Below, piece by piece: positions 7,671 to 28,017 of a stretch of 53,712 bases of DNA. Made by a program: the position numbers and the translations under genes. Position 1 is the first letter of the stretch; each line of letters starts with the position of its first letter. The DNA comes from a virus. The notes beneath the pieces were generated by a model, which saw only the letters and a list, made by a program, of their open reading frames with translations, was not told the DNA's origin and ran no database searches. The stretch is taken from positions 1 through 53,712 of the IMG/VR virus record IMGVR_UViG_3300008113_006113, one strand, 5' to 3'.

Positions 7671-7680
7671 TTTATTTATC
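7671..7680 (-). promoter_or_regulatory. Late promoter of the capsid gene (GATAAATAAA)
   Basis: The minus strand reads GATAAATAAA starting 30 nt upstream of the capsid ATG. It matches the window's late motif with A for T at the fifth base and is nearly the T4 TATAAATA box. It overlaps the stop codon of the protease gene. Confidence 0.6.
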
Positions 7681-9637
7681 TTTTTTGAAATTTTTGCTCA
7701 AGTGCAGAAGCGATATAATTCATGTAATCTGAAGAATATGCTTGTGTTTTTGCAGTCTCGGCTACATTTTCACTCTCATCAAGTTTTTGTACTCCAACTG
7801 GTTTAGCTCCAAGCTGACGAGTTGACCAGAAATTTTTGATCTGGTAAGGAGTATCTAAATTATAGAAGTGTGACTGAGCAACAATAGATGCTTGGTGTCC
7901 TTCTGATAAAGATTCCCATACCGGAGCATATTCTGCTGGCATTTCGTCAATAAACTTAAGACCTGTTTTAGTTGTGTTCTCTGACTCGTTAAGAGCTGTT
8001 TCGTTAGCCTTCTGTGTTTCGGCTGGGTTTACTGCTTTAGCAGCTTCGTTGATGTTTGAAGCGGTTTTTTGTGTCTTAACCGATTCTATTAATGAATCAA
8101 TCTGTGAAGTTAGGTTATCATAGTTTCCAGCAAAGCCAGATTCATTAAGACCTGCTTCTGCAGATAGATTTACACTCTCTTTTAATACTCCAGTACCATT
8201 AGATGGAATTTTAGTAGAAACTGACTCAGCGATGTATTCGCTATAAGCAATTCCTCTGTTTAATTTCTCTGCAAGATACTCAGAATAGTCTAATCCTTTA
8301 TTTAAGTTCTCTGCAAGATAGTCAGAGTACTCGATGCTCTTGTTTAAATTCTCAGCAACGTATTCAGTGTATTCGATTCCGTTGTTTAGTTTTTCAGCAA
8401 CGTATTCAGTATAAGCGATTCCTTTATCTAAGTTTTCTCCAAGATATTCAGAATAAGCGATTCCTTTATCTACGTTTTCTGCTAAGTACTCTGAGTATTG
8501 AATATTTTGATCCAATTTTTCTGCTAAGTATTTAGAGTACTCGATGTTCTTGTCAACGCTTTCAGCAACATACTCGGAATAAGAGATAGACTTATCTACG
8601 TTTTCAGCTAAGTACTTAGAATAAGAAATATTCTTGTCTAAGTTTTCTGCTAAATATTTACTGTAGTTGATAGTGCTGTCCAAGTTTTCTGCTAAATACT
8701 CACCGTATTTAATAGAATTTTCTAGATTCTCAGCTAAATACTCTGCATATTTTTCAAGCTTAGCAACTCTTTCTTCAAGAGCTTCATTAGCTTTACTTAA
8801 ATCTTCAGATTCAGTTAGCGATGCTTTTTGATTTTTAGCCTCTGCGATAGCGGCTTTCATCGAATCCATTTCTTTTTTCAAGAAGACTGAATACTGATTA
8901 AGCTCCTCCGCAGTAACAAATTCATTGTTCTCCATAAGGACTGATTTATTTTTATTATCTGATTTATTCACGATTTTGTTGAATTCTTCGTTATTTTCAA
9001 CTTTATATATCTTCAGTGAAGATTCTTTTTCGATACCTAAAGATTCATTTAAGCATTCTAAGCTATTTAATATGCTATTATTTTTCATTGCTTCGAATTC
9101 TTGAGATGTAAACCCTTGGCTTTCATACACTCTTTCAAGTTGTGCGTCCTTAAATCCAGGATCAGCTACTAGATCGTAAGTAAAAATTTTCTTAATTGCC
9201 ACCTTTTTATCATTACCTACTGAACCAGCTGCTCTTGAAGAAATAGAAAGAGGAACTCCAGCATCAACTAAGTTCTTAGCTATTCTACCCGCTGGGGTAT
9301 CTAAAAGTTTAACCTTAATCTTAAGCTCTCTGTTACCTTTATCGTAGTTAAGATCTGTTATGATGTGAGAGATGTTCTTAAGAGACACATCGAATTTCTC
9401 TGGGTGATCTAATTCACCAACCAGTCTATTCTGTGAGATCTTATCCTTCAAATATTCAAGGTGCGGTAAATATTCCTTCTCCTCGTATATTCTATTGTTG
9501 TTGTTCTCTTGCCCGAAAACAGCAGCAATACCTTCTAGAACGTAATCGTCAGATTCTGACTTTTTCGCTTCTAGTATGGAATTCTGTCTCTCAAGGATGA
9601 ATACCATATTTTCGTTTAATGATTGTAGTTGTGGCAT
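7676..9637 (-). CDS. 21: Prohead protease fused to a repetitive scaffold-like tail (T4 gp21/gp22-like)
   Basis: 653 residues. Residues about 30-165 match the gp21-type prohead serine protease: YVLEGIAAVFGQ strand, GELDHPE with catalytic His78, SISSRAAG with probable Ser133, and YDLVADPGF near 154-162. After a linker come 13 tandem 14-residue repeats (296-477) of the type YSEYLAENLDKGIA, predicted helical. The rest is acidic with several LNE or INE sites (LNE|S, INE|A). T4 has separate gp21 and gp22 genes ahead of gp23; here one gene occupies that place. I infer a protease-scaffold fusion that digests itself during maturation. A late promoter precedes it. Confidence 0.85.
   Translation of the reverse strand: MPQLQSLNENMVFILERQNSILEAKKSESDDYVLEGIAAVFGQENNNNRIYEEKEYLPHLEYLKDKISQNRLVGELDHPEKFDVSLKNISHIITDLNYDKGNRELKIKVKLLDTPAGRIAKNLVDAGVPLSISSRAAGSVGNDKKVAIKKIFTYDLVADPGFKDAQLERVYESQGFTSQEFEAMKNNSILNSLECLNESLGIEKESSLKIYKVENNEEFNKIVNKSDNKNKSVLMENNEFVTAEELNQYSVFLKKEMDSMKAAIAEAKNQKASLTESEDLSKANEALEERVAKLEKYAEYLAENLENSIKYGEYLAENLDSTINYSKYLAENLDKNISYSKYLAENVDKSISYSEYVAESVDKNIEYSKYLAEKLDQNIQYSEYLAENVDKGIAYSEYLGENLDKGIAYTEYVAEKLNNGIEYTEYVAENLNKSIEYSDYLAENLNKGLDYSEYLAEKLNRGIAYSEYIAESVSTKIPSNGTGVLKESVNLSAEAGLNESGFAGNYDNLTSQIDSLIESVKTQKTASNINEAAKAVNPAETQKANETALNESENTTKTGLKFIDEMPAEYAPVWESLSEGHQASIVAQSHFYNLDTPYQIKNFWSTRQLGAKPVGVQKLDESENVAETAKTQAYSSDYMNYIASALEQKFQKR
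8207..8752 (-). repeat. Coding tandem repeat, 13 x 42 bp
   Basis: Thirteen degenerate 42-bp units encode 14-residue repeats with the core Y-(S/T)-(E/K)-Y-L-A-E-(N/K)-(L/V) within the protease-scaffold fusion. The units differ at many synonymous positions, so this is an old, protein-selected repeat and not a recent slippage product. Confidence 0.9.
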
Positions 9638-12386: not shown

Positions 12387-13193
12387 CTATTTTTCGTTGT
12401 AGATTTTATCGTAAGCCTCTGAAGTCAGGTCTATCAATTTCTCTATATATCCTTCATTTCTGAGCTTTTTAAATGCCAAATTACCGATTGAGAATTCACC
12501 CTCCTTTCCAAGTCCCTCTTTCCTCATCTTCATGATTTTCTCCTTTAACTTCATACCTCTATTATATAGCTCTTTGGCATTATGAGGAAGTGCGGTAGAA
12601 GCAATCAATCTCGTGTGGAGCTGTTCTATTTCATATGCCATAGCATCTGTCTTCTTGTTCACGTCCATCTCATCTATCTCTGGCGGATCGAATACCGGAT
12701 TCTTTATCCATTCGTTATTCATTAGGGAGAACAGGCCAGAAGCTACGTGAGGCTCTTTTGCGTCCTGCACATATAGCTCCACGTCATATCCCCTGATTGA
12801 TATGTTGTGTCTTAGATTCCATATAAATCTTATACCGTCTAGTGCGGTCTTAAGTATCTTGGGATTTTCGTCATCTATACCTTCGAGGTTGACGATAACA
12901 TGGACATCAAGGTCAGATAGATTAGTGTAGTTGAAGTTTGCTAGAGATCCAGTTAATTGGATATCTACTATGTCCTTTTGTTTAAGAATCTCCTCAAACT
13001 TTTCAAAGAATTCGTCCGCTATTCTAAGGAGCTTTTTTCTTACCCTCTGATCAAATAACCATTCAACATCATCACCCTTCATTTTCTTCGTCCAGAAAAC
13101 AGGATTTAGTTCGTCGTGATAGAACGGGTTTACTTGTCTCTCCAGGATAGGTGAAGCATTAATAAATTTTTTATAAGATAAAACTGAACCCAC
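12387..13193 (-). CDS. MNT-type nucleotidyltransferase with targeting-like N-terminus
   Basis: 268 residues starting at a GTG; no in-frame ATG lies near. The motif TGSLANFNYTNLSDLDVHV (residues about 82-100) is the GS...DxD signature of the Pol-beta nucleotidyltransferase superfamily, which transfers a nucleotide to protein, RNA or small molecules. The N-terminus LSYKKFINASPILE|RQ resembles the capsid-targeting peptides of the neighbouring internal proteins. Its late-type promoter sits in the loop of the upstream terminator. The start is read from right after the terminator's T run. The gene is 7 nt from the 893-residue gene. I infer a virion-packaged nucleotidyltransferase; a tRNA- or antitoxin-like role is the alternative. 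Confidence 0.65.
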   Translation of the reverse strand: MGSVLSYKKFINASPILERQVNPFYHDELNPVFWTKKMKGDDVEWLFDQRVRKKLLRIADEFFEKFEEILKQKDIVDIQLTGSLANFNYTNLSDLDVHVIVNLEGIDDENPKILKTALDGIRFIWNLRHNISIRGYDVELYVQDAKEPHVASGLFSLMNNEWIKNPVFDPPEIDEMDVNKKTDAMAYEIEQLHTRLIASTALPHNAKELYNRGMKLKEKIMKMRKEGLGKEGEFSIGNLAFKKLRNEGYIEKLIDLTSEAYDKIYNEK

Positions 13194-13199
13194 AAAAAA

Positions 13200-13233
13200 A
13201 AAGCTTTTCTTGTATATATCAAAGAAAAGCTTT
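13200..13233 (-). terminator. Terminator hairpin with a late promoter in its loop
   Basis: 12-bp perfect stem (13200-13211 with 13222-13233) and a 10-nt loop. On the minus strand it is followed by a run of T. It ends the exonuclease transcript (stop at 13258). The loop contains GATATATAC. Confidence 0.88.
13213..13220 (-). promoter_or_regulatory. Late promoter in the terminator loop (GATATATA)
   Basis: The minus strand reads TTGATATATACAAG, 20 nt upstream of the nucleotidyltransferase GTG. The flanking bases form the stem of the terminator hairpin. Confidence 0.6.
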
Positions 13234-20637: not shown

Positions 20638-22263
20638 TTATAGAGTTACCTCCGGAGCTTCTCCTTCGCCCTCGCCCTCCGCTGGAGCGGCCTCGCCTTC
20701 AGCTCCGCCTTCCTCTTTCTTAGGAGCAGCTTTTGCTTCTTTTTTCAAATAGCTTTCGTTTGTAGCTATTTGATCCGGAGTTAACCCAAGGAATCTTTGT
20801 ATAAGATAATCATTATCAAAGTATGCTTTCTCTTCCTCTCCGACCTTAACTTTAAGCTCGCCTAAGCCTTTTATGAATTCGCTTCTCTTAGTAAAGTTGG
20901 TAAGTTGAACCATTTCTTCAAACTCACTTTCTCTGTGAAAATCCAATCCCAGATTTGCTTTAAAGCTTCTATCTCTTGACAACTCAGGAAAATCTAAGCA
21001 CATTTGAATATAAAGGGGCTTGACAAGTATCTCCTGGAAAATAGATCTTAATCTTCTTAGGAATTTCTCAAACCTTATCTCGTCTCTTTCCAACTGATCT
21101 ATACCTATCTGATAATTAACAGGACCAGCAGCCCTTGAAGCAAATCTAGCATAAGGTATTTTGGAATCCATTTTTAACTTGTTATAGAAATAAAGAACAT
21201 TATCCATAACATTAAAATCCGGACCATTAGGATTTAATGATTCTATCTGAGGTGATTGACCATTCTGTTCAGGAAATAGATAGTTTTTATAAAACTGAAC
21301 CTTAGGTCTTCCATTTACCGTTAATTCACCTGAAGCGTCATTAATGGTAATATCCTCCTTGTAGTTAGACATTAGCTGGCCTAAAGTCTGCATAGCTTTT
21401 TGAGGAGATTGGCTACCAGTAGGAATAATAAACTTCAATCTATAAGAAGCATTCATAACATTCCAGATGATTCTGGAATTCTCCATGATTCTTAGAATGT
21501 TGTAGGATCTAACGAGTCTTTCTATATAGCTAACCCTAGATACGCTATTACCCTTAGCATAAGAAATATAAATGATTTGCTCATTTGTTAGTTTCCTAGT
21601 CATTTGAGGATTTTTTGGATACTGAATCCAAAATTGTTGGTATTCATTTTCCCCTATCTTTTCAACAGCGGGTTGTAGAGAAGATGGATCAAGCTCTTTA
21701 AATCCGATTATCTCTTTTCCTTTGTTGTCATAGATAATCTCAAATGCGAGAAATCCGTCAATTAAAAATTGTTTGAAATACTGCCAAGCAAGTACGGAAT
21801 TTTGGAACCCAAATATATTGTACAGCCTATTATAATGTAGAGATATCTTATTTAATACCTTCTCCTTTAGATCTAAATTAAGGAAAGAAGGATTAGCAAA
21901 ATAATTTCTATCGTCATAAGTGATAGATTCGTCTGTAATCGTATCAATAATAAATTCAATTTCTCCATTTAGTGAAAATTTTCTTAAGAAGTTTCTTTTT
22001 TCTACATAGTCCTTATCGAAGTATGCGATGTATTTTCTTACCTTGGTATCCTGGTAAGAAGCTGTCCAGTAAAAAGCGTCATCCTGGGTAAATCCAGTTC
22101 CTTGCTGATTAAAGAAATAACTTTCTGTTTTACCTACGGCCTGAGAATTTCTAACGACCATGTCATCATACTGCATACCGAACTTGGATACTTTACCAAG
22201 GCTTCTCAGTATGTTACCTAAAGCTGACTCGTTAGGTCTTAAAAAATCTAAAAATCCTGCCAT
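20638..22263 (-). CDS. 20: Portal protein, copy B (T4 gp20-like)
   Basis: 541 residues. Features shared with gp20: the YDDMVVRNSQAVGK start, WQYFKQFLIDGFLAFEIIYD, GFKELDPSSL, IIYISYAKGN, SRVSYIERLVRSYN and the RFEKFLRRLRSIFQEIL clip/stem region. It ends in an acidic Gly/Glu/Ala/Pro tail encoded by unusually GC-rich DNA, finishing GEAPEVTL. The portal forms the dodecameric channel at the capsid vertex. It lies 9 nt downstream of a clearly homologous second portal gene (22273-23886). Both look intact. Confidence 0.92.
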   Translation of the reverse strand: MAGFLDFLRPNESALGNILRSLGKVSKFGMQYDDMVVRNSQAVGKTESYFFNQQGTGFTQDDAFYWTASYQDTKVRKYIAYFDKDYVEKRNFLRKFSLNGEIEFIIDTITDESITYDDRNYFANPSFLNLDLKEKVLNKISLHYNRLYNIFGFQNSVLAWQYFKQFLIDGFLAFEIIYDNKGKEIIGFKELDPSSLQPAVEKIGENEYQQFWIQYPKNPQMTRKLTNEQIIYISYAKGNSVSRVSYIERLVRSYNILRIMENSRIIWNVMNASYRLKFIIPTGSQSPQKAMQTLGQLMSNYKEDITINDASGELTVNGRPKVQFYKNYLFPEQNGQSPQIESLNPNGPDFNVMDNVLYFYNKLKMDSKIPYARFASRAAGPVNYQIGIDQLERDEIRFEKFLRRLRSIFQEILVKPLYIQMCLDFPELSRDRSFKANLGLDFHRESEFEEMVQLTNFTKRSEFIKGLGELKVKVGEEEKAYFDNDYLIQRFLGLTPDQIATNESYLKKEAKAAPKKEEGGAEGEAAPAEGEGEGEAPEVTL

Positions 22264-22272
22264 CTCTTATTT

Positions 22273-23886
22273 TTATAGTGTTACTTCTGGTGCTTCCCCT
22301 TCTTTTTCTTCCCCGCCTTCTTCTCCACCTTCTTTCTTCTCTGCTTTTTCCTTCTCCTTAGCTTTTCTCTCCATGGCTTCCTTATTTGCTATTATATCCT
22401 GTCTGGACATACCAAGGAAAGTCTCAATAAGGAAAGCGGTAGAGAAATATGGCTTCTCTTCGTCTCCGAGTAATCCTGCCATAGCAGTAACAGATTCTTT
22501 CCTTTTATTAATAACATCCATCTCCTGATTGAGCTTAAATGGATTATCAGAGAAATAATCTAGTCCCAATTGGCTCTTAAATAAGAAGTCCTTCTCCAGG
22601 TTAGGATATTTTTTAGCCATTTGAATCCAAAGTGGCTTTGTTAATATCTCCTGGAAAATTGATCTAAGTCTTTCTACAAACTTAGCAAATCTTATTTCTT
22701 CCTTATCTAATCCTTCCGCTCCGTTTGAATATGGAGAAGTGTTTCCACCGTCTGGAGTGTGAAACCTTGAAGGCGGAACTTTAGATTCTTGCACGAACTT
22801 ATCAAAGAAGTAAGACAAAGGTGCAGGATCATTTAGATTAGGTCCCTCAGTGGTAACAGGTTCTATGGTAGGCGTACCATTAACACCAGAGGGCATAAGA
22901 TAGTTTTTATAAAACTGGATCTTAGGTTTACCGTCAATTAGTAATTCCCCGCTCTCATCATTAAGCTGGACATCCTCCTTATAGATACTCATAAGTTCAC
23001 CCAAGGTTTGCATACCCTTTTGAGGTGATTTAGTACCGATAGGAACTGTCATCTTTAATCTAAAAGATGAATTCATAACAGACCAGATAACTCTAGTGTA
23101 TTCTATAATTCTCAGAATGTTATACGGTCTAATTAGCCTCTCGATATAACTTACCCTAGAGATTGCATTTCCTTTAGCATAAGAAATATAGATTATCTGC
23201 GGATCGTAAAGTATTCTTCTCCTTTTCGGGTCTTGTGGGAATTGGGTCCAGGTATTAACAAAAGTTCCGTCTACCTGTTTCTCTACACTCGGTATTATAG
23301 TAACAGGATCCAATTCTTTAAATCCTATGATATATTTACCCTCGTTATCGTAGATTATCTCAAAGCATAAAAATCCGTCAACTAAAAATTGTCTAAAGTA
23401 CTGCCATCCAGTAATGTCGTCGGTAAATCCCCAGATGTCATAAAGCTTTTTATAATTCTCATAAAGATCCTCTTTTAGCTTTTCATTTATGTCTGAAAGA
23501 TCTATGAAATCCGGGTATGCAAAGAAATTAGCGGGATCGTAAGAAATGGCTTCGTCACATATCGTATCTAGAACCCATTCTATCTCGGGATTAAGCGAGA
23601 ATTTTCTTAGATAATCCCTTTTGCCCTTATAGTCTTTATCGAAATATGAAATGAACTGCTTTGTTGTGATATCCTGCTTTGCTAAGGTCCAAAGCATGCT
23701 TTCGTCCTCTACATTAGCTTTGTTCTTATTTAAAAAAGCAGCCTCAGTAACACCAACAGCTTGTGAATTTCTGATGACCATGTCATCATACTTCATACCA
23801 AAAGTACTCAGTTTCCTCACTGATTCCCTGATCCTCTGTATAACAGGGGATTGAGATGGATCATTATTGTCTACAAAACCGGCCAT
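22273..23886 (-). CDS. 20: Portal protein, copy A (T4 gp20-like)
   Basis: 537 residues, colinear with the downstream portal copy along its whole length: YDDMVIRNSQAVG, WQYFRQFLVDGFLCFEIIYD, GFKELDPVTI, IIYISYAKGN, SRVSYIERLIRPYN and RFAKFVERLRSIFQEIL. The same acidic tail ends GEAPEVTL. Differences are spread throughout, so the duplication is old and both copies are under selection. A late-type GATATATA match lies 59 nt upstream (23945-23952), inside the preceding gene. One copy may form the portal and the other a related ring, or the two may mix. Confidence 0.92.
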   Translation of the reverse strand: MAGFVDNNDPSQSPVIQRIRESVRKLSTFGMKYDDMVIRNSQAVGVTEAAFLNKNKANVEDESMLWTLAKQDITTKQFISYFDKDYKGKRDYLRKFSLNPEIEWVLDTICDEAISYDPANFFAYPDFIDLSDINEKLKEDLYENYKKLYDIWGFTDDITGWQYFRQFLVDGFLCFEIIYDNEGKYIIGFKELDPVTIIPSVEKQVDGTFVNTWTQFPQDPKRRRILYDPQIIYISYAKGNAISRVSYIERLIRPYNILRIIEYTRVIWSVMNSSFRLKMTVPIGTKSPQKGMQTLGELMSIYKEDVQLNDESGELLIDGKPKIQFYKNYLMPSGVNGTPTIEPVTTEGPNLNDPAPLSYFFDKFVQESKVPPSRFHTPDGGNTSPYSNGAEGLDKEEIRFAKFVERLRSIFQEILTKPLWIQMAKKYPNLEKDFLFKSQLGLDYFSDNPFKLNQEMDVINKRKESVTAMAGLLGDEEKPYFSTAFLIETFLGMSRQDIIANKEAMERKAKEKEKAEKKEGGEEGGEEKEGEAPEVTL

Positions 23887-23918: not shown

Positions 23919-24524
23919 TTAAATTAATTTCGATTGGTATTCCTTATATATCCCCTGCAGATCTAAGCCCTCTACATCGCCCCTTCTCAGATAAGGTAAT
24001 TTATACCAGTCTTCTAAGTCCAAAACATGTATTTCTCTGATGAACCTTGTCTTGAATCCAAATAGAGAAAACTCATATCCGGTATTAGCAAGCATATTCT
24101 TAAGATTGATATTAGTTAAAGGCAAGGGAGATATAGCTCCTCCTTTTGTATAGTAATTCTGATTTTTTTCTATCATGGAAGAAAAGTTATCATAAACCTT
24201 TCCCACTATTTTCATTCTATACTCCGGAGGTGTTACGACAAGATCGATACCTCTTAATATCACACCATTTTCCGGTGTCGGGTAAGAATCTGTGCATAAT
24301 ACTATAGGATTTCTGTCTATAAACTTTCTCTTATCTGACAACTCGCTGTCAGTGGGATAGGGAAAGGCATATATTTCTCCTGGTATAAAAGGAGGGGAAA
24401 AACTCTTCTCTGAATTTCCTCCGGAGAAATATTTCTCGGAAAACACATCATCAGTATTCTTTACTAGCTCTGCAATACTGTTGAATTCTTTCTTGTATTG
24501 TAATACAGATTCTGAATATTTCAT
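23919..24524 (-). CDS. Virion assembly protein, possibly DNA end protector (gp2-like)
   Basis: 201 residues. The central segment PGEIYAFPY...DRNPIVLCTD...GIDLVVTPPEYR follows a pattern I associate with T4-like end-protector or completion proteins: G-x-[IM]-Y-x-F-x-Y, then DR-x-P, then GxxL and P-x-x-x-R. I hold this loosely. It overlaps the stop of the gp4-like gene by ATGA, and in T4 genes 2 and 4 are close neighbours. The role would be capping packaged DNA or finishing the head. No enzymatic motif was seen. Confidence 0.45.
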   Translation of the reverse strand: MKYSESVLQYKKEFNSIAELVKNTDDVFSEKYFSGGNSEKSFSPPFIPGEIYAFPYPTDSELSDKRKFIDRNPIVLCTDSYPTPENGVILRGIDLVVTPPEYRMKIVGKVYDNFSSMIEKNQNYYTKGGAISPLPLTNINLKNMLANTGYEFSLFGFKTRFIREIHVLDLEDWYKLPYLRRGDVEGLDLQGIYKEYQSKLI

Positions 24525-25006
24525 TTACTTTTAAATAGGAATTTTTCATCGACCACACCGAATCTAAATCCTCTTTTCTCAGCCCATTCTTTAGCTGCTT
24601 TGAATTTTGCTTGGTTCGTTATCCAAACCTGCATGTTGTGATTATATGATTTTAGCTTAGCAAGGGTCATAGTACCCTCATAAATGGGCTTTTGAGTCTG
24701 CCTCTCCGGCTTGATCTCTATTATCCACTGTTGTTCTTCGCCAGACTCTTTTAGAACTTTTATATAAAAATCTACATTGTAATCATGTTCCTTTTTGTCC
24801 AGAGGATTGATGTACTTGATAGCTATAGGTTCAGAACTCCATTTCATTATGGATTCATTAGTATCGCAATAAACACAGAATCGATATTCCCAGGAAGATC
24901 TGTATATTATGTTGTGGATATCTCCAATATACTTATCTGGGTTAGAGGGTTCAAATTTTCCGGATTTGTAATCCCCATTAGGTTTTACTTTTTTTATATC
25001 CGTCAT
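24521..25006 (-). CDS. 4: Head completion protein, TnsA-like nuclease fold (T4 gp4-like)
   Basis: 161 residues. GKFEPSNPDKYIGD, then NIIYRSSWEYRF, VYCDTNESIMKWSSEPIAI, YINPLDKKEHDYNVDFYI and IIEIKPERQTQKP match the T4 gp4 (gp50) head-completion family nearly motif for motif. The E/D/ExK residues (SSWE, VDF, EIKP) form the TnsA-type nuclease site. It acts after packaging to permit tail joining. It ends in TGA, which overlaps the start of the next gene. Confidence 0.88.
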   Translation of the reverse strand: MTDIKKVKPNGDYKSGKFEPSNPDKYIGDIHNIIYRSSWEYRFCVYCDTNESIMKWSSEPIAIKYINPLDKKEHDYNVDFYIKVLKESGEEQQWIIEIKPERQTQKPIYEGTMTLAKLKSYNHNMQVWITNQAKFKAAKEWAEKRGFRFGVVDEKFLFKSK

Positions 25007-25014
25007 GATAACTT

Positions 25015-25404
25015 TTATACGTTATACGAATTATCGTCACCTGTTATGTAGCTGAATGGGATAGTTTTAGGACTTTTTGGTGGGTGTAATTTTTTCCATC
25101 CCTTTGCAAATCCATTCTTTGCTATCTGGGTAAAGTAAGCAAAGGGATTGTTGGATTTTTCTGGATTGAATCTATCCCAATATTTACAAAGATCTTCCAT
25201 AGCAAAAGCCATGCAATCCTCTTTGTCCTCTGGATCTTTATAGGCCATTTTTTTGGATATACCCTGGATCATTAGGGTAAACATTCTTATAGTCTCAGGG
25301 GTAAGTTTACCCGCTTTTTTCGATTCTATAACAGCGACGATAAGATCACTATTTCTAACATAGTCTTTTGCCATTAATTCTTTATTATTTTGAAGGTTGG
25401 TCAT
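25015..25404 (-). CDS. 55: Late transcription sigma factor (T4 gp55-like)
   Basis: 129 residues. The N-terminal NNKEL, the GISKKMAYKD segment, and DCMAFAMEDLCKYWDRFNPEKSNNPFAYFTQIAKNGF align well with the gp55 core of T4 (ISK/LSKRF..., FD..KYKNPHAYITQ...F). The chain is shorter than T4 gp55 (185), losing the C-terminal region. It would direct RNA polymerase to late promoters, here presumably the GATATATA/GATAAATA boxes. It sits between the gp4-like gene and the frameshift gene; the latter's terminator is at 25445-25473. Confidence 0.78.
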   Translation of the reverse strand: MTNLQNNKELMAKDYVRNSDLIVAVIESKKAGKLTPETIRMFTLMIQGISKKMAYKDPEDKEDCMAFAMEDLCKYWDRFNPEKSNNPFAYFTQIAKNGFAKGWKKLHPPKSPKTIPFSYITGDDNSYNV

Positions 25405-25444: not shown

Positions 25445-25473
25445 GAGAACGTAGCTTAAAAAGCTACGTTCTC
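25445..25473 (-). terminator. Intrinsic terminator after the frameshift extension
   Basis: 13-bp perfect stem (GAGAACGTAGCTT and its complement) with a 3-nt loop. It lies 16 nt past the stop codon of the -1-frame extension (25489-25491) and is followed by a T run on the minus strand. Confidence 0.9.
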
Positions 25474-25488
25474 AGTTATTTTTTTATA

Positions 25489-25647
25489 TTATTTAGAGTC
25501 TTCCTTAGAATCAGATTCTTCCTCTTGTTCCTCTTGTTCCTTACCTGTTGGTGCCTTGCTTAATTTACCTGCAGACGAATCAACAAATTCTTTTCCTGGA
25601 GTCTTCTGACTATCAAATTTCGGAGCGAAATAGAAGTTACGACTTAG
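25489..25647 (-). CDS. Minus-1-frame C-terminal extension (52 codons, no start codon)
   Basis: This open frame begins at the slippery site and runs 52 codons to a TAA at 25489-25491. It contains no ATG, GTG or TTG, so it cannot be a normal separate gene. It encodes LSRNFYFAPKFDS... and an acidic tail (GKEQEEQEEESDSKEDSK). The zero-frame gene stops right after the slippery heptamer. Frameshifting would give a 385-residue product instead of 333. The acidic tail is of the same type as the parent protein. A terminator follows directly, so the transcript is built to include the extension. Confidence 0.7.
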   Translation of the reverse strand, partial: LSRNFYFAPKFDSQKTPGKEFVDSSAGKLSKAPTGKEQEEQEEESDSKEDSK

Positions 25648-26645
25648 TTTTTTTTTAAATCGTCAGATTCGTCTAGGTTGTAACCCATCTCATCATTTAC
25701 TTCGAAATCTATATCACCTTCTGATCCTGGGGCTTCCGCTAAATTCATGAATTTATCTAAAGATGTTACATGTTTTGTCTCCTTAGCAGCTTTACCTTTT
25801 TCCGGTGCTTCTACTAAATTAGCATCTACTCCTTCTCTAAGATTGTATCCGATTTCTTTGTTCTTACCATCTGCGTCTTTACCCTCAAATTCAGTTTTAT
25901 CCTTAGTTTCTGGACCTTCAGCTAAATCATCTTCGCCTTCCACTTTACCTTTTTCTTTCTTATTGTTTCCTGGTGCTTTAGCCATAGCATCTGCTTTAGC
26001 CTTAGCTTCGTTAACTGTAAGATTGTAACCGTGCATATGATCGAGTTCCATCTCGATTTCGTCTCCTTCTCCCTTAGGTGCTTTAGTGAATCCGTGTCCG
26101 TCAGAGAAAGTTTTTAATAAAGCTTTTTGCTCCTCTAAGCTTAAACCAGATTTTTCAAGGGTTCTAGAGATTTCTGACTCTTTAACTTCTCCGCCTTCTT
26201 CCTCTTCTCCTTTATCATCAGAATTCTTTTCTGCTGCTTGGCTTAAAGCTTCTTCTAGATCAGAGATTTCATTAACTAGGAAATCTGAAGTTTTACCGGT
26301 ATCCAAAAGAACTGTATATCTTCCTGATGAAGCATCTACTGAAATGATCTTTCCAGTTTCGCCAGATTCTTTAACTTTGATATAGTCACCAATATTGAAT
26401 TTCTCATCTTCAGACAATGTTTCATATTCTGGTGAATCCTCGATCTTACTTAATTCAATATTGATCTGATTCCATTTTTCTCTTAATACTGAAAGTTCGT
26501 TATTAAGTAAAGCGTGAGCGGATTTCATTTCCTTTGAAGAAGCATATAAAGGATTGTTTTCCATTAGACCCTCAACCTTATTGATTTGATCTTCTATTCT
26601 AGAAATGTTTCGTTGATTCTTTGAAGGTAAATTTCGCTGTTCCAT
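25644..26645 (-). CDS. Acidic core/scaffold-like protein with repeated LxE sites
   Basis: 333 residues. The N-terminal half is helical (KNQRNISRIEDQINKVEGLME) plus a small beta domain around NIGDYIKVKESGETGKIISV. The C-terminal half repeats GYNL with LxE-type sites followed by small residues: LAE|G, VNE|A, LRE|G, LVE|A, LAE|A and LDE|S. These fit the gp21 consensus and would let the protease cut the tail into short peptides, as happens to T4 gp22 and gp67/68 core proteins. It ends at a TAA directly after A AAA AAC. The gene overlaps the 463-residue gene by 52 nt, in another frame. Function is inferred. Confidence 0.6.
   Translation of the reverse strand: MEQRNLPSKNQRNISRIEDQINKVEGLMENNPLYASSKEMKSAHALLNNELSVLREKWNQINIELSKIEDSPEYETLSEDEKFNIGDYIKVKESGETGKIISVDASSGRYTVLLDTGKTSDFLVNEISDLEEALSQAAEKNSDDKGEEEEGGEVKESEISRTLEKSGLSLEEQKALLKTFSDGHGFTKAPKGEGDEIEMELDHMHGYNLTVNEAKAKADAMAKAPGNNKKEKGKVEGEDDLAEGPETKDKTEFEGKDADGKNKEIGYNLREGVDANLVEAPEKGKAAKETKHVTSLDKFMNLAEAPGSEGDIDFEVNDEMGYNLDESDDLKKN
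25647..25656 (-). other. Candidate -1 ribosomal frameshift (slippery) site
   Basis: The minus strand reads TTA AAA AAA AAC TAA in the zero frame, i.e. nine A then C, containing the canonical heptamer A AAA AAC in the correct phase, with the stop codon immediately after. Transcriptional slippage that inserts one A would give the same product. I see no obvious stimulatory hairpin just downstream. Confidence 0.65.
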
Positions 26646-27985
26646 TTAATAAGGTTAACTGAAACTCCTTCGTAGATATTAGAAGTTATATTTTTAGCAA
26701 AGTCTAACTCAACGATGTTAGAGAAGTTTACGTAAAGATTGATGATATCACCAACTACTTGAGATTCATTAACTGCAAAGTGTGAAGCAGATTCTAAGCC
26801 TAATACTTTAGCCAATTCTCCTACGCTTCTGAAGTTTAGTTTAGATTTACCTAAGTAAACTGAAACACCTTCATTTTCTTCTACCAAGCTAACATATTTC
26901 TTTCCTAATTGGATTAAGATTCCGTTTTCGTTGATCTTAACATAAGGTCTAAGAGCAGAGTTAACCAAACTGATATAATCAGCTGGTACAGATCCAACTT
27001 CTTTTGTGCTTAATTTTCTTAGTGATTCTCCCTGAGCTTCAAATAAGCTATTTCCGATAGCAAAGATAGTTTTATCTCCCTCGATTAAGATTGGTGAGTA
27101 GATTCTTCCCACTTTTGATTCTCCTTGAGCATTAACAGGGATTTCCAATTTTCTAGAATCTGATGCCTCGTTAACATTTAAGTAATTGATTAAATTTCTA
27201 ACAACTGGATTAAAAGACCATTTTGAGATTTCTTTAGAAAGTAAACCTGAAGATTTGCTTTCAGAAATTAGCCAGTTGCTTAATGATTCACTAAGCTCAG
27301 AATAGAAACTGTTGTTTCCACTTTGTTTAATAGATTCTAAAACTTTAGAAACTTCTATTTCTCTCGAGAATTTATTAATCTTCTCTTTAAGATTTTCGAT
27401 GATAGGTAAAACCGTAACGTCCCATTTGAAAGATTCTAATTCAGCAACGAAGTTGTGAATAACTGAAAATTCTGGTACGCTCTTATTTGCAATGATATTT
27501 GCATACTGCTCACAAACGATTTTAACCTTAGGGTATTCGTAAATAGAAAGGCCTTTGATTTTTCCGATTGATTCAAGAACTCCTAAGTTTCTAAGTCCCT
27601 GAGCTTCAACGAAAGATCTTGTGCTATTGTCGTTTGTTTCTAAGTTATTTAGGCTCTCTAAAAGAGATTTGCTAGTTTCTTCTTTCTTTTCGTTTCCGAT
27701 ATAAGAACCAGAATTATTTAAAGAAGCATTGCCTCTTAAACCTCCCCAAGATTCCATTAAAGCTGAAGCTCTCTTTTTAGATTCCTCCATTTGCTCATTT
27801 TTTATAGAATCCCAGTGGCTTTTCATTTCTGGTGTTGCTTCTGCTGAAGCTTGCTCGTTAAGAGCGGCAAGAACCTGTGATTCGGTCATCTCAGAGGATC
27901 CGCTAAGATAACTCTCGCAAATTTGTCTAACCTCTGGTGATTTTGTTAGTTCTTTCAGTTTTTTAACTTGGTTTATAAAATCCAT
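26594..27985 (-). CDS. Virion-core-like protein with LNE/VNE cleavage motifs
   Basis: 463 residues; no family recognised. It is mostly helical with Ser/Glu/Asn-rich composition. Candidate gp21-type sites include LNE|Q near 44, VNE|A near 275, LFE|A near 315, VNE|S near 430 and IYE|G near 450. A late promoter precedes it by 25 nt. Its 3' end overlaps the acidic 333-residue gene by 52 nt. I infer a prohead core or internal protein. Dense serine and leucine use is unlike the DNA-metabolism genes. Confidence 0.5.
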   Translation of the reverse strand: MDFINQVKKLKELTKSPEVRQICESYLSGSSEMTESQVLAALNEQASAEATPEMKSHWDSIKNEQMEESKKRASALMESWGGLRGNASLNNSGSYIGNEKKEETSKSLLESLNNLETNDNSTRSFVEAQGLRNLGVLESIGKIKGLSIYEYPKVKIVCEQYANIIANKSVPEFSVIHNFVAELESFKWDVTVLPIIENLKEKINKFSREIEVSKVLESIKQSGNNSFYSELSESLSNWLISESKSSGLLSKEISKWSFNPVVRNLINYLNVNEASDSRKLEIPVNAQGESKVGRIYSPILIEGDKTIFAIGNSLFEAQGESLRKLSTKEVGSVPADYISLVNSALRPYVKINENGILIQLGKKYVSLVEENEGVSVYLGKSKLNFRSVGELAKVLGLESASHFAVNESQVVGDIINLYVNFSNIVELDFAKNITSNIYEGVSVNLIKWNSEIYLQRINETFLE

Positions 27986-28009
27986 GGTCTTTTGTTTTTT
28001 TAATCTTTT

Positions 28010-28017
28010 TATATATC
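28010..28017 (-). promoter_or_regulatory. Late promoter (GATATATA)
   Basis: The minus strand reads TGGATATATAAAA, 25 nt upstream of the 463-residue gene. It probably drives the core-protein and gp55/gp4/portal genes that follow. Confidence 0.65.

Follow-up and report, generated by a model that had tools for sequence, protein, structure and literature searches.

Runs of nine A or T residues are described in bacteria as giving rise to mRNAs with extra bases (PMC5009743). Selection against slippage is reported to be visible at nine nucleotides in a large share of bacterial genomes; the same study took conservation of run length between homologues as a sign of purposeful slippage (PMC1088944). 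The dnaX gene of Thermus thermophilus resembles the phage gene described here in carrying A9 on the coding strand and in having two length forms (PMC1088944, PMC5009743). In dnaX, however, the long form is described as being in frame and slippage as truncating it, an arrangement that most phage members reverse and only a few in-frame members (5/73) resemble; moreover, dnaX encodes a polymerase subunit, whereas the phage gene is a late gene. Insertion sequences with 9A slippage (PMC1088944) and Shigella spa13 (PMC5009743) are described as yielding an extended or fused product, as would the phage gene. What is added in these cases is a transposase half or 112 residues, respectively, compared with a short tail with an acidic end in a late gene of large dsDNA phages. 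A -1-frame C-terminal extension of an assembly or capsid gene is described for lambda gpG/gpGT and for the major head protein of phage A2; these, in contrast, are ribosomal, while the present gene has a conserved run length and no conserved structure was seen. Finally, for the CPt10 methyltransferase, which carries a poly-A frameshift, the authors suggest that transcriptional slippage could express the phage gene. That case is described as a frame-shift mutation in one phage, whereas the two-form design considered here appears to be conserved across a clade (PMC2853527). In the open-access papers searched, we found no description of the slip site reported below.

The window, i.e. the whole stretch of 53,712 nt analyzed here, contains a minus-strand ORF that ends in GAC GAT TTA AAA AAA AAC TAA. 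The candidate slip site is the A9 run on the coding strand within the codons TTA AAA AAA AAC (25648..25656, minus strand). The zero-frame stop TAA (25644..25646, minus strand) is the next codon after those of the run and ends the short form. In the -1 frame, a tail of 52 codons plus stop (25489..25647, minus strand) reads LSRNFYFAPKFDSQK...KEDSK, with its codons at 25647-25492 and its TAA at 25489-25491; it comprises the motifs SRNFYFAP...QN...GKLSKAPTGK followed by an acidic end. This frame is open from 25662 and contains no ATG, GTG or TTG. Past the tail stop, after 15 nt, a terminator-like hairpin of 13 bp followed by T8 begins (25445..25473, minus strand). The coding strand of the window has no other run of at least nine A, but three A8 runs occur. 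Also on the coding strand, a T9 run (13194-13202) lies directly before the GTG of the gene at 12387-13193.

These features agree with the original prediction, which had placed the heptamer A AAA AAC in phase before TAA, had called the -1 frame open for 52 codons without ATG, GTG or TTG and had noted a terminator near the tail end. It had also held that ribosomal frameshifting and transcriptional slippage yield the same fusion, but the junction peptides differ by sequence: as read from the letters, one added A gives DDLKKKLSR and a ribosomal -1 shift gives DDLKKNLSR. The protein of 333 residues that it had described, moreover, proved to have the wrong length and N-terminus, both made by a deletion found only in the window. 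Four contigs (L003-L006) with a 99%-identical core have 163 nt more than the window at about 26609, which places the approximate junction of the deletion at 26600..26620 (minus strand). In L004-L006, both window ORFs form one ORF of 834 aa, while L003 is cut at its contig end. Since the window lacks the 163 nt that would join this ORF, the start of the 333-residue protein is not natural. The gene is therefore present in two pieces, a severed N-terminal part (26594..27985, minus strand) and a C-terminal part (25644..26645, minus strand) whose first residues are in another frame than in the relatives. The latter comprises a helical region, an SH3-like domain, and a low-confidence acidic region with protease-type sites. 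Among 33 complete aligned relatives, the zero-frame product measures 722-989 aa, with 834 aa in the closest. The deletion could be biological or an assembly fault. Separately, the gene of L059 is interrupted by an in-frame TAG at the position of a tryptophan in L006 (ISKWSFNPVV region), which may be a mutation, an error or a case of recoding.

Relatives were gathered via the protein (26 loci), via the neighbouring head completion gene (63 loci), and by a profile search, in which a profile built from 33 full-length homologues gave 99 relatives, 80 of them kept. Altogether 150 loci with a junction, many of which repeat one contig, reduced to 56 distinct junctions and, at 90% nucleotide identity, to 42 clusters. 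Junctions were located from protein matches, independently of any requirement for an A-run. Loci ending inside the gene (L028, L102, L113, L138, L145, L155, L157, and L158) were left out of the junction counts, and L029, L046, and L088 stop short of the junction. In L086, the head completion gene is present and the core gene is absent within about 1 kb upstream.

All 42 cluster representatives carry the A-run (A9 in 36, A10 in six), followed by C in 23, G in 12, and T in seven. The stop is the codon right after those of the run in 38 clusters, and in 40 the stretch from the upstream stop to tail codon 20 contains no ATG, GTG or TTG; the two clusters with a possible tail start codon are L058 and the in-frame L023. 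As a safeguard against circularity, a search with the tail only gave 112 pattern matches, of which 73 were confirmed, on 73 IMG/VR contigs. Every one of these contigs has A9 or A10 beside the tail, whose frame relative to the main gene is -1 in 68 (in three of them as a separate small ORF) and zero in five. Lack of conservation of run and extension, which the original prediction had named as the outcome that would speak against it, was thus not found.

As a control, we searched the 42 representatives (472,620 bases) for other sense-strand runs of at least nine A and found 21. The leader directly ahead of the gene accounts for 14 of these, and a run inside the gene is found in L022 and L056 only (one representative each). 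The pattern A9-V-TARG occurs a single time, at the slip gene, in seven of eight large contigs and is absent from the eighth, which is of the in-frame L026 type; the reversed pattern gave one match across all eight. The tail-only search, together with the codon columns described below, places the arrangement of the slip site far beyond chance. A homopolymer run of at least nine bases whose length is conserved among homologues, the hallmark used for programmed transcriptional slippage, is therefore present.

The same counts bear on the view that the gene is decayed or mis-sequenced, i.e. that the run has lost a base and that the tail is a broken ORF end. Homopolymers are prone to sequencing error, the window gene is broken elsewhere, and L059 has its in-frame TAG. 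Nevertheless, the same arrangement recurs in 65 of the 73 tail-found contigs, with three more having a separate ORF, and it spans 42 divergent clusters with a tail under protein-level selection. Given the conservation of run and tail across clusters and tail-found contigs, we rejected sequencing error or decay, the probability of which we regard as negligible.

Protein-level constraint on the tail in its own frame follows from the distribution of substitutions over codon positions 1, 2, and 3, which is 114/80/339 for 20 disjoint pairs that may not be independent. A further alternative is a tail translated separately, by re-initiation or from its own start, with the run only serving that purpose; in L058, L060, and L062 the tail is indeed a small ORF with its own ATG. 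However, this explanation appears highly improbable and was rejected, as no ATG, GTG or TTG is available up to tail codon 20 in 40 of the 42 clusters. For the same reason, ordinary ORF calling would drop the tail.

To what extent the run itself is selected was examined in a zero-frame codon alignment of the 33 genes, in which 735 columns have at least 25 residues. Only columns 831 and 832 show A at the third base wherever a row has a residue (mean share over columns 0.37). Both columns are in the run, and column 831 lies outside the heptamer; its amino acid is L, V, Q, E or S, with at least nine changes on the tree of 33. AAG is missing from just two of the 37 conserved lysine columns, 583 and 832, and column 833 has a single AAG among 31 lysines. 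Absence of AAG alone is thus not unique to the run, given that column 583 shares it. When read directly, the second and third codons of the run are AAA in all 42 clusters. The fourth codon, in contrast, is variable (AAC 22, AAG 11, AAT five, AAA two, and ACC one, the main gene of L058 having already ended), with at least seven changes on the tree of 33. On these alignments, the run appears to be under more selection than the protein and a ribosomal heptamer would require, as would be expected for slippage.

These patterns have to be weighed against programmed -1 ribosomal frameshifting, in which tandem tRNAs would slip on A AAA AAC or A AAA AAG (or A AAA AAA). The heptamer is in phase in the window and in most clusters (A AAA AAC, AAG or AAT in 38 of the 42, A AAA AAA in others), and a fairly stable hairpin before the run in L085 (z -1.88) speaks against slippage. 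Ribosomal -1 frameshifting is also described for phage tail genes (PMC5009743) and reported for capsid genes (PMC10885494). Against it stand the run length, which is always at least nine, the retention of A at the third base of codon 831, beyond the heptamer, and the variable fourth codon. In E. coli, moreover, the heptamers A AAA AAC and A AAA AAT act as weak frameshift sites. A consensus fold of 18 junctions, a search for simple stem-loops, contained 0 pairs as a candidate stimulator, and 12 single junction folds had z-values of -1.88 to 1.29, near the shuffle mean. We thus regard ribosomal frameshifting as the unlikely alternative, although it possibly acts alone or in addition to slippage.

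The kept run, the position of column 831 beyond the heptamer and folds that yielded no conserved structure favour slippage of RNA polymerase over ribosomal -1 shifting as the leading explanation for the tail-bearing form; such slippage would explain both the kept run length and a fourth codon that may be AAC, AAG, AAT, AAA or ACC. That the A9-A10 run is a programmed slip site at which RNA polymerase slips, giving two product forms, is in our judgement probable on the sequence comparisons. The ranking of the original prediction, in which the ribosomal heptamer came first and transcriptional slippage second, is thereby reversed: the conserved element is a run of at least nine A rather than just A AAA AAC, the fourth codon varies, and no conserved RNA structure was found. 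Published slippage thresholds agree in part with this reading. In an E. coli cell-free system, ribosome sliding is described as robust at A11 and as little at A9 or A10 (PMC4363877). Counting against slippage, E. coli RNA polymerase is described as slipping relatively weakly and as requiring more consecutive A than T residues (PMC6260861).

A few lineages depart from the common arrangement. The five in-frame contigs have CCCC after the run, such that one added A would give KKKPQS and then a stop. In L058, L060, and L062 (contigs L213-L215), with their separate tail ORF, one added A would give KKKS and then a stop. Both groups keep A9, which fits selection for both forms, but each is a group of close relatives, and retention of the run may therefore be mere inheritance. 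As five of the 73 contigs are in frame and three have a separate small ORF, the default product differs between lineages, which counts against the slippage reading. On the tree, the in-frame L026 lies beside the -1-frame L024 and L044 (the support for L026 and L044 being 92/62 only), and by this placement the in-frame state looks derived. The stop lies one codon later in L044 and eleven codons into the tail in L024. The in-frame-tail member L026 (L026:3168-5795) also has, in its N-terminal part, an insertion of 94 residues resembling a peptidoglycan-binding domain; a PF01471 match (E 3.9e-13) in one member was assigned to L026 from this insertion.

Homopolymer runs are classic contingency loci, and the run measures 9 or 10 depending on the lineage. 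Replication slippage at the DNA level might accordingly toggle the tail between virions. However, members with a run of 10 have different codons next to it and keep the same frame relation, and the in-frame members (5/73) differ in the C's after the run rather than in run length. Such phase variation is very unlikely on this evidence, which consists of contigs, i.e. consensus sequences in which minority run-length variants would be missed.

The protein with the slip site most likely belongs to the internal proteins of the head or prohead, as suggested by the late-promoter-like box and the protease-type sites. The box before the gene reads TATATAA in the window (28009..28015, minus strand); all 33 aligned relatives have a GATATATA box in front of theirs, and similar boxes precede some other window genes, e.g. 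the tail sheath and protease genes. A short way past the GATATATA-type box and ahead of the ATG, 14 of the 42 representatives (L015, L018, L021, L024, L044, L056, L058, L063, L064, L065, L069, L072, L116, and L152) have a further A9-A10 run in the 5′ leader; possibly, these runs allow slippage at transcription start. As for the sites, [ILM]xE[AGS] was counted over the 190 aa before the slip site in the 42 representatives (L078 contributing 48 aa only). We take this motif to be of the T4 maturation-protease type, the cleavage being putative since it is predicted by pattern only. It occurs 127 times compared with 31.3 in shuffles, in line with the protease sites noted at the outset. In 30 of the 42 (L058 was not scored as near), a site lies no more than 12 aa from the slip codon, often as YNLxE↓S, with the arrow marking the putative cut. 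The capsid protein of the window itself has LNE↓SAG close to its start.

Prohead core and internal proteins of T4 are cut by the gp21 protease. The slip-gene product resembles these in its [ILM]xE↓[AGS] sites, late-promoter-like box and head-gene neighbourhood. Unlike T4 core proteins, it has no detectable homology to PHROG or Pfam head families, and scaffold-like repeats are found in the protease gene at 7676-9637 rather than in the slip-gene product. An AlphaFold2 model of the 834-aa product of L006 (mean pLDDT 65.1, pTM 0.37) shows regions of order as far as about residue 640, while its C-terminal part is of low confidence. In Pfam, the main result was a weak SH3-like match, obtained for 24 of 33 members. 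PHROG gave no match for either window ORF of the gene and, over the 33 members at E ≤ 0.1, none matching more than five members, with strong endolysin matches from one member. No PDB match was obtained at E ≤ 0.001. At the same threshold, BFVD gave nine matches, eight uncharacterised and one labelled DNA ligase 1, and these include one from Tenacibaculum phage PTm1. Neither by sequence nor by fold did these searches find homology to a known head protein or a homologue with known head location.

The next gene encodes a late sigma factor (gp55-like; 25015..25404, minus strand; phrog_234, E 1.2e-15) and is followed by the gene for the head completion nuclease (gp4-like; 24521..25006, minus strand; phrog_218 (head closure), E 7.8e-48). 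Two adjacent portal-like genes (20638-22263 and 22273-23886) both match phrog_213. The head maturation protease gene (7676-9637) encodes a long C-terminal part of near-repeats (YLAENLDK...); perhaps the protease is fused to a scaffold, as PTm1 ORF-300 is annotated.

By the portal gene at 22273-23886, whose best matches are LR756500 (43.6%), LR756501-04, and LR745206 (635-735 kb), then Lak phages, the closest named relatives are the Lak / LR7565xx group of large phages. Several of the relatives lie on contigs of 270-435 kb. For the N-terminal part of the slip gene, matches were obtained to LR756500 and to 15 Lak records; when two relatives that are longer or more distant served as queries, LR756500 was the sole match. 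Among named phages, no homologue of the 333-aa part or of the tail was found. LR756500 and Lak-A1 (L091, L092), the two named records with the N-terminal part that were examined, gave no tail match, and the tail module therefore looks limited to one clade. In Lak-A1 (L092, 3182-8245), reading TAG as Q reveals a very acidic homologue of 1687 aa, in which no tail was found. A profile search of six regions (MaF61, LR756504, LR756502, LR756501, PTm1, and PAU) gave no homologue at E ≤ 10, and the consensus tail peptide had no match in plasmids. One bacterial genome contig (L167) matches residues 550-617 only. Moraphages are described as aquatic large phages with predicted Bacteroidota hosts (PMC12619734). 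They may overlap with the slip-site clade, as size and relation to Lak fit, and the main text of that paper makes no mention of frameshifting or slippage.

Slippage of RNA polymerase at the run would act as follows. RNA polymerase, presumably host core with the phage gp55-like sigma factor, would add one A, or drop two, in part of the late-gene mRNAs. Ribosomes on slipped mRNA would then translate the -1 frame, extending the C-terminus by a tail of about 50 residues, while unslipped mRNA would give the form ending right after the run. The product would belong to the interior of the head or prohead and be trimmed by the maturation protease, and cleavage at the site just before the slip codon would release the tail as a short internal peptide. 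Conservation of the run, the stop and the tail frame, protein-level selection on the tail and lack of a start codon are what the sequences show; we infer that the polymerase and not the ribosome slips, in what proportion the two forms are made, that the protein resides in the head, and what the peptide does there. Going further, we tentatively consider that this phage clade may use polymerase slippage on the fixed A9-A10 run to adjust how much of a short internal head peptide is made, with the protease freeing the tail in the head and selection keeping both forms; where the frame relation is lost, the run would stay and slippage would now make the short form. This combined reading is possible but rather doubtful.

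If true, the slip site would be a case of conserved programmed transcriptional slippage in a structural gene of tailed phages. The 42 clusters are naturally suited to telling polymerase slippage and ribosomal frameshifting apart. The phages themselves carry a conserved protein segment easily missed by annotation, and a two-form design is indicated for what is probably a head protein of large uncultured phages.
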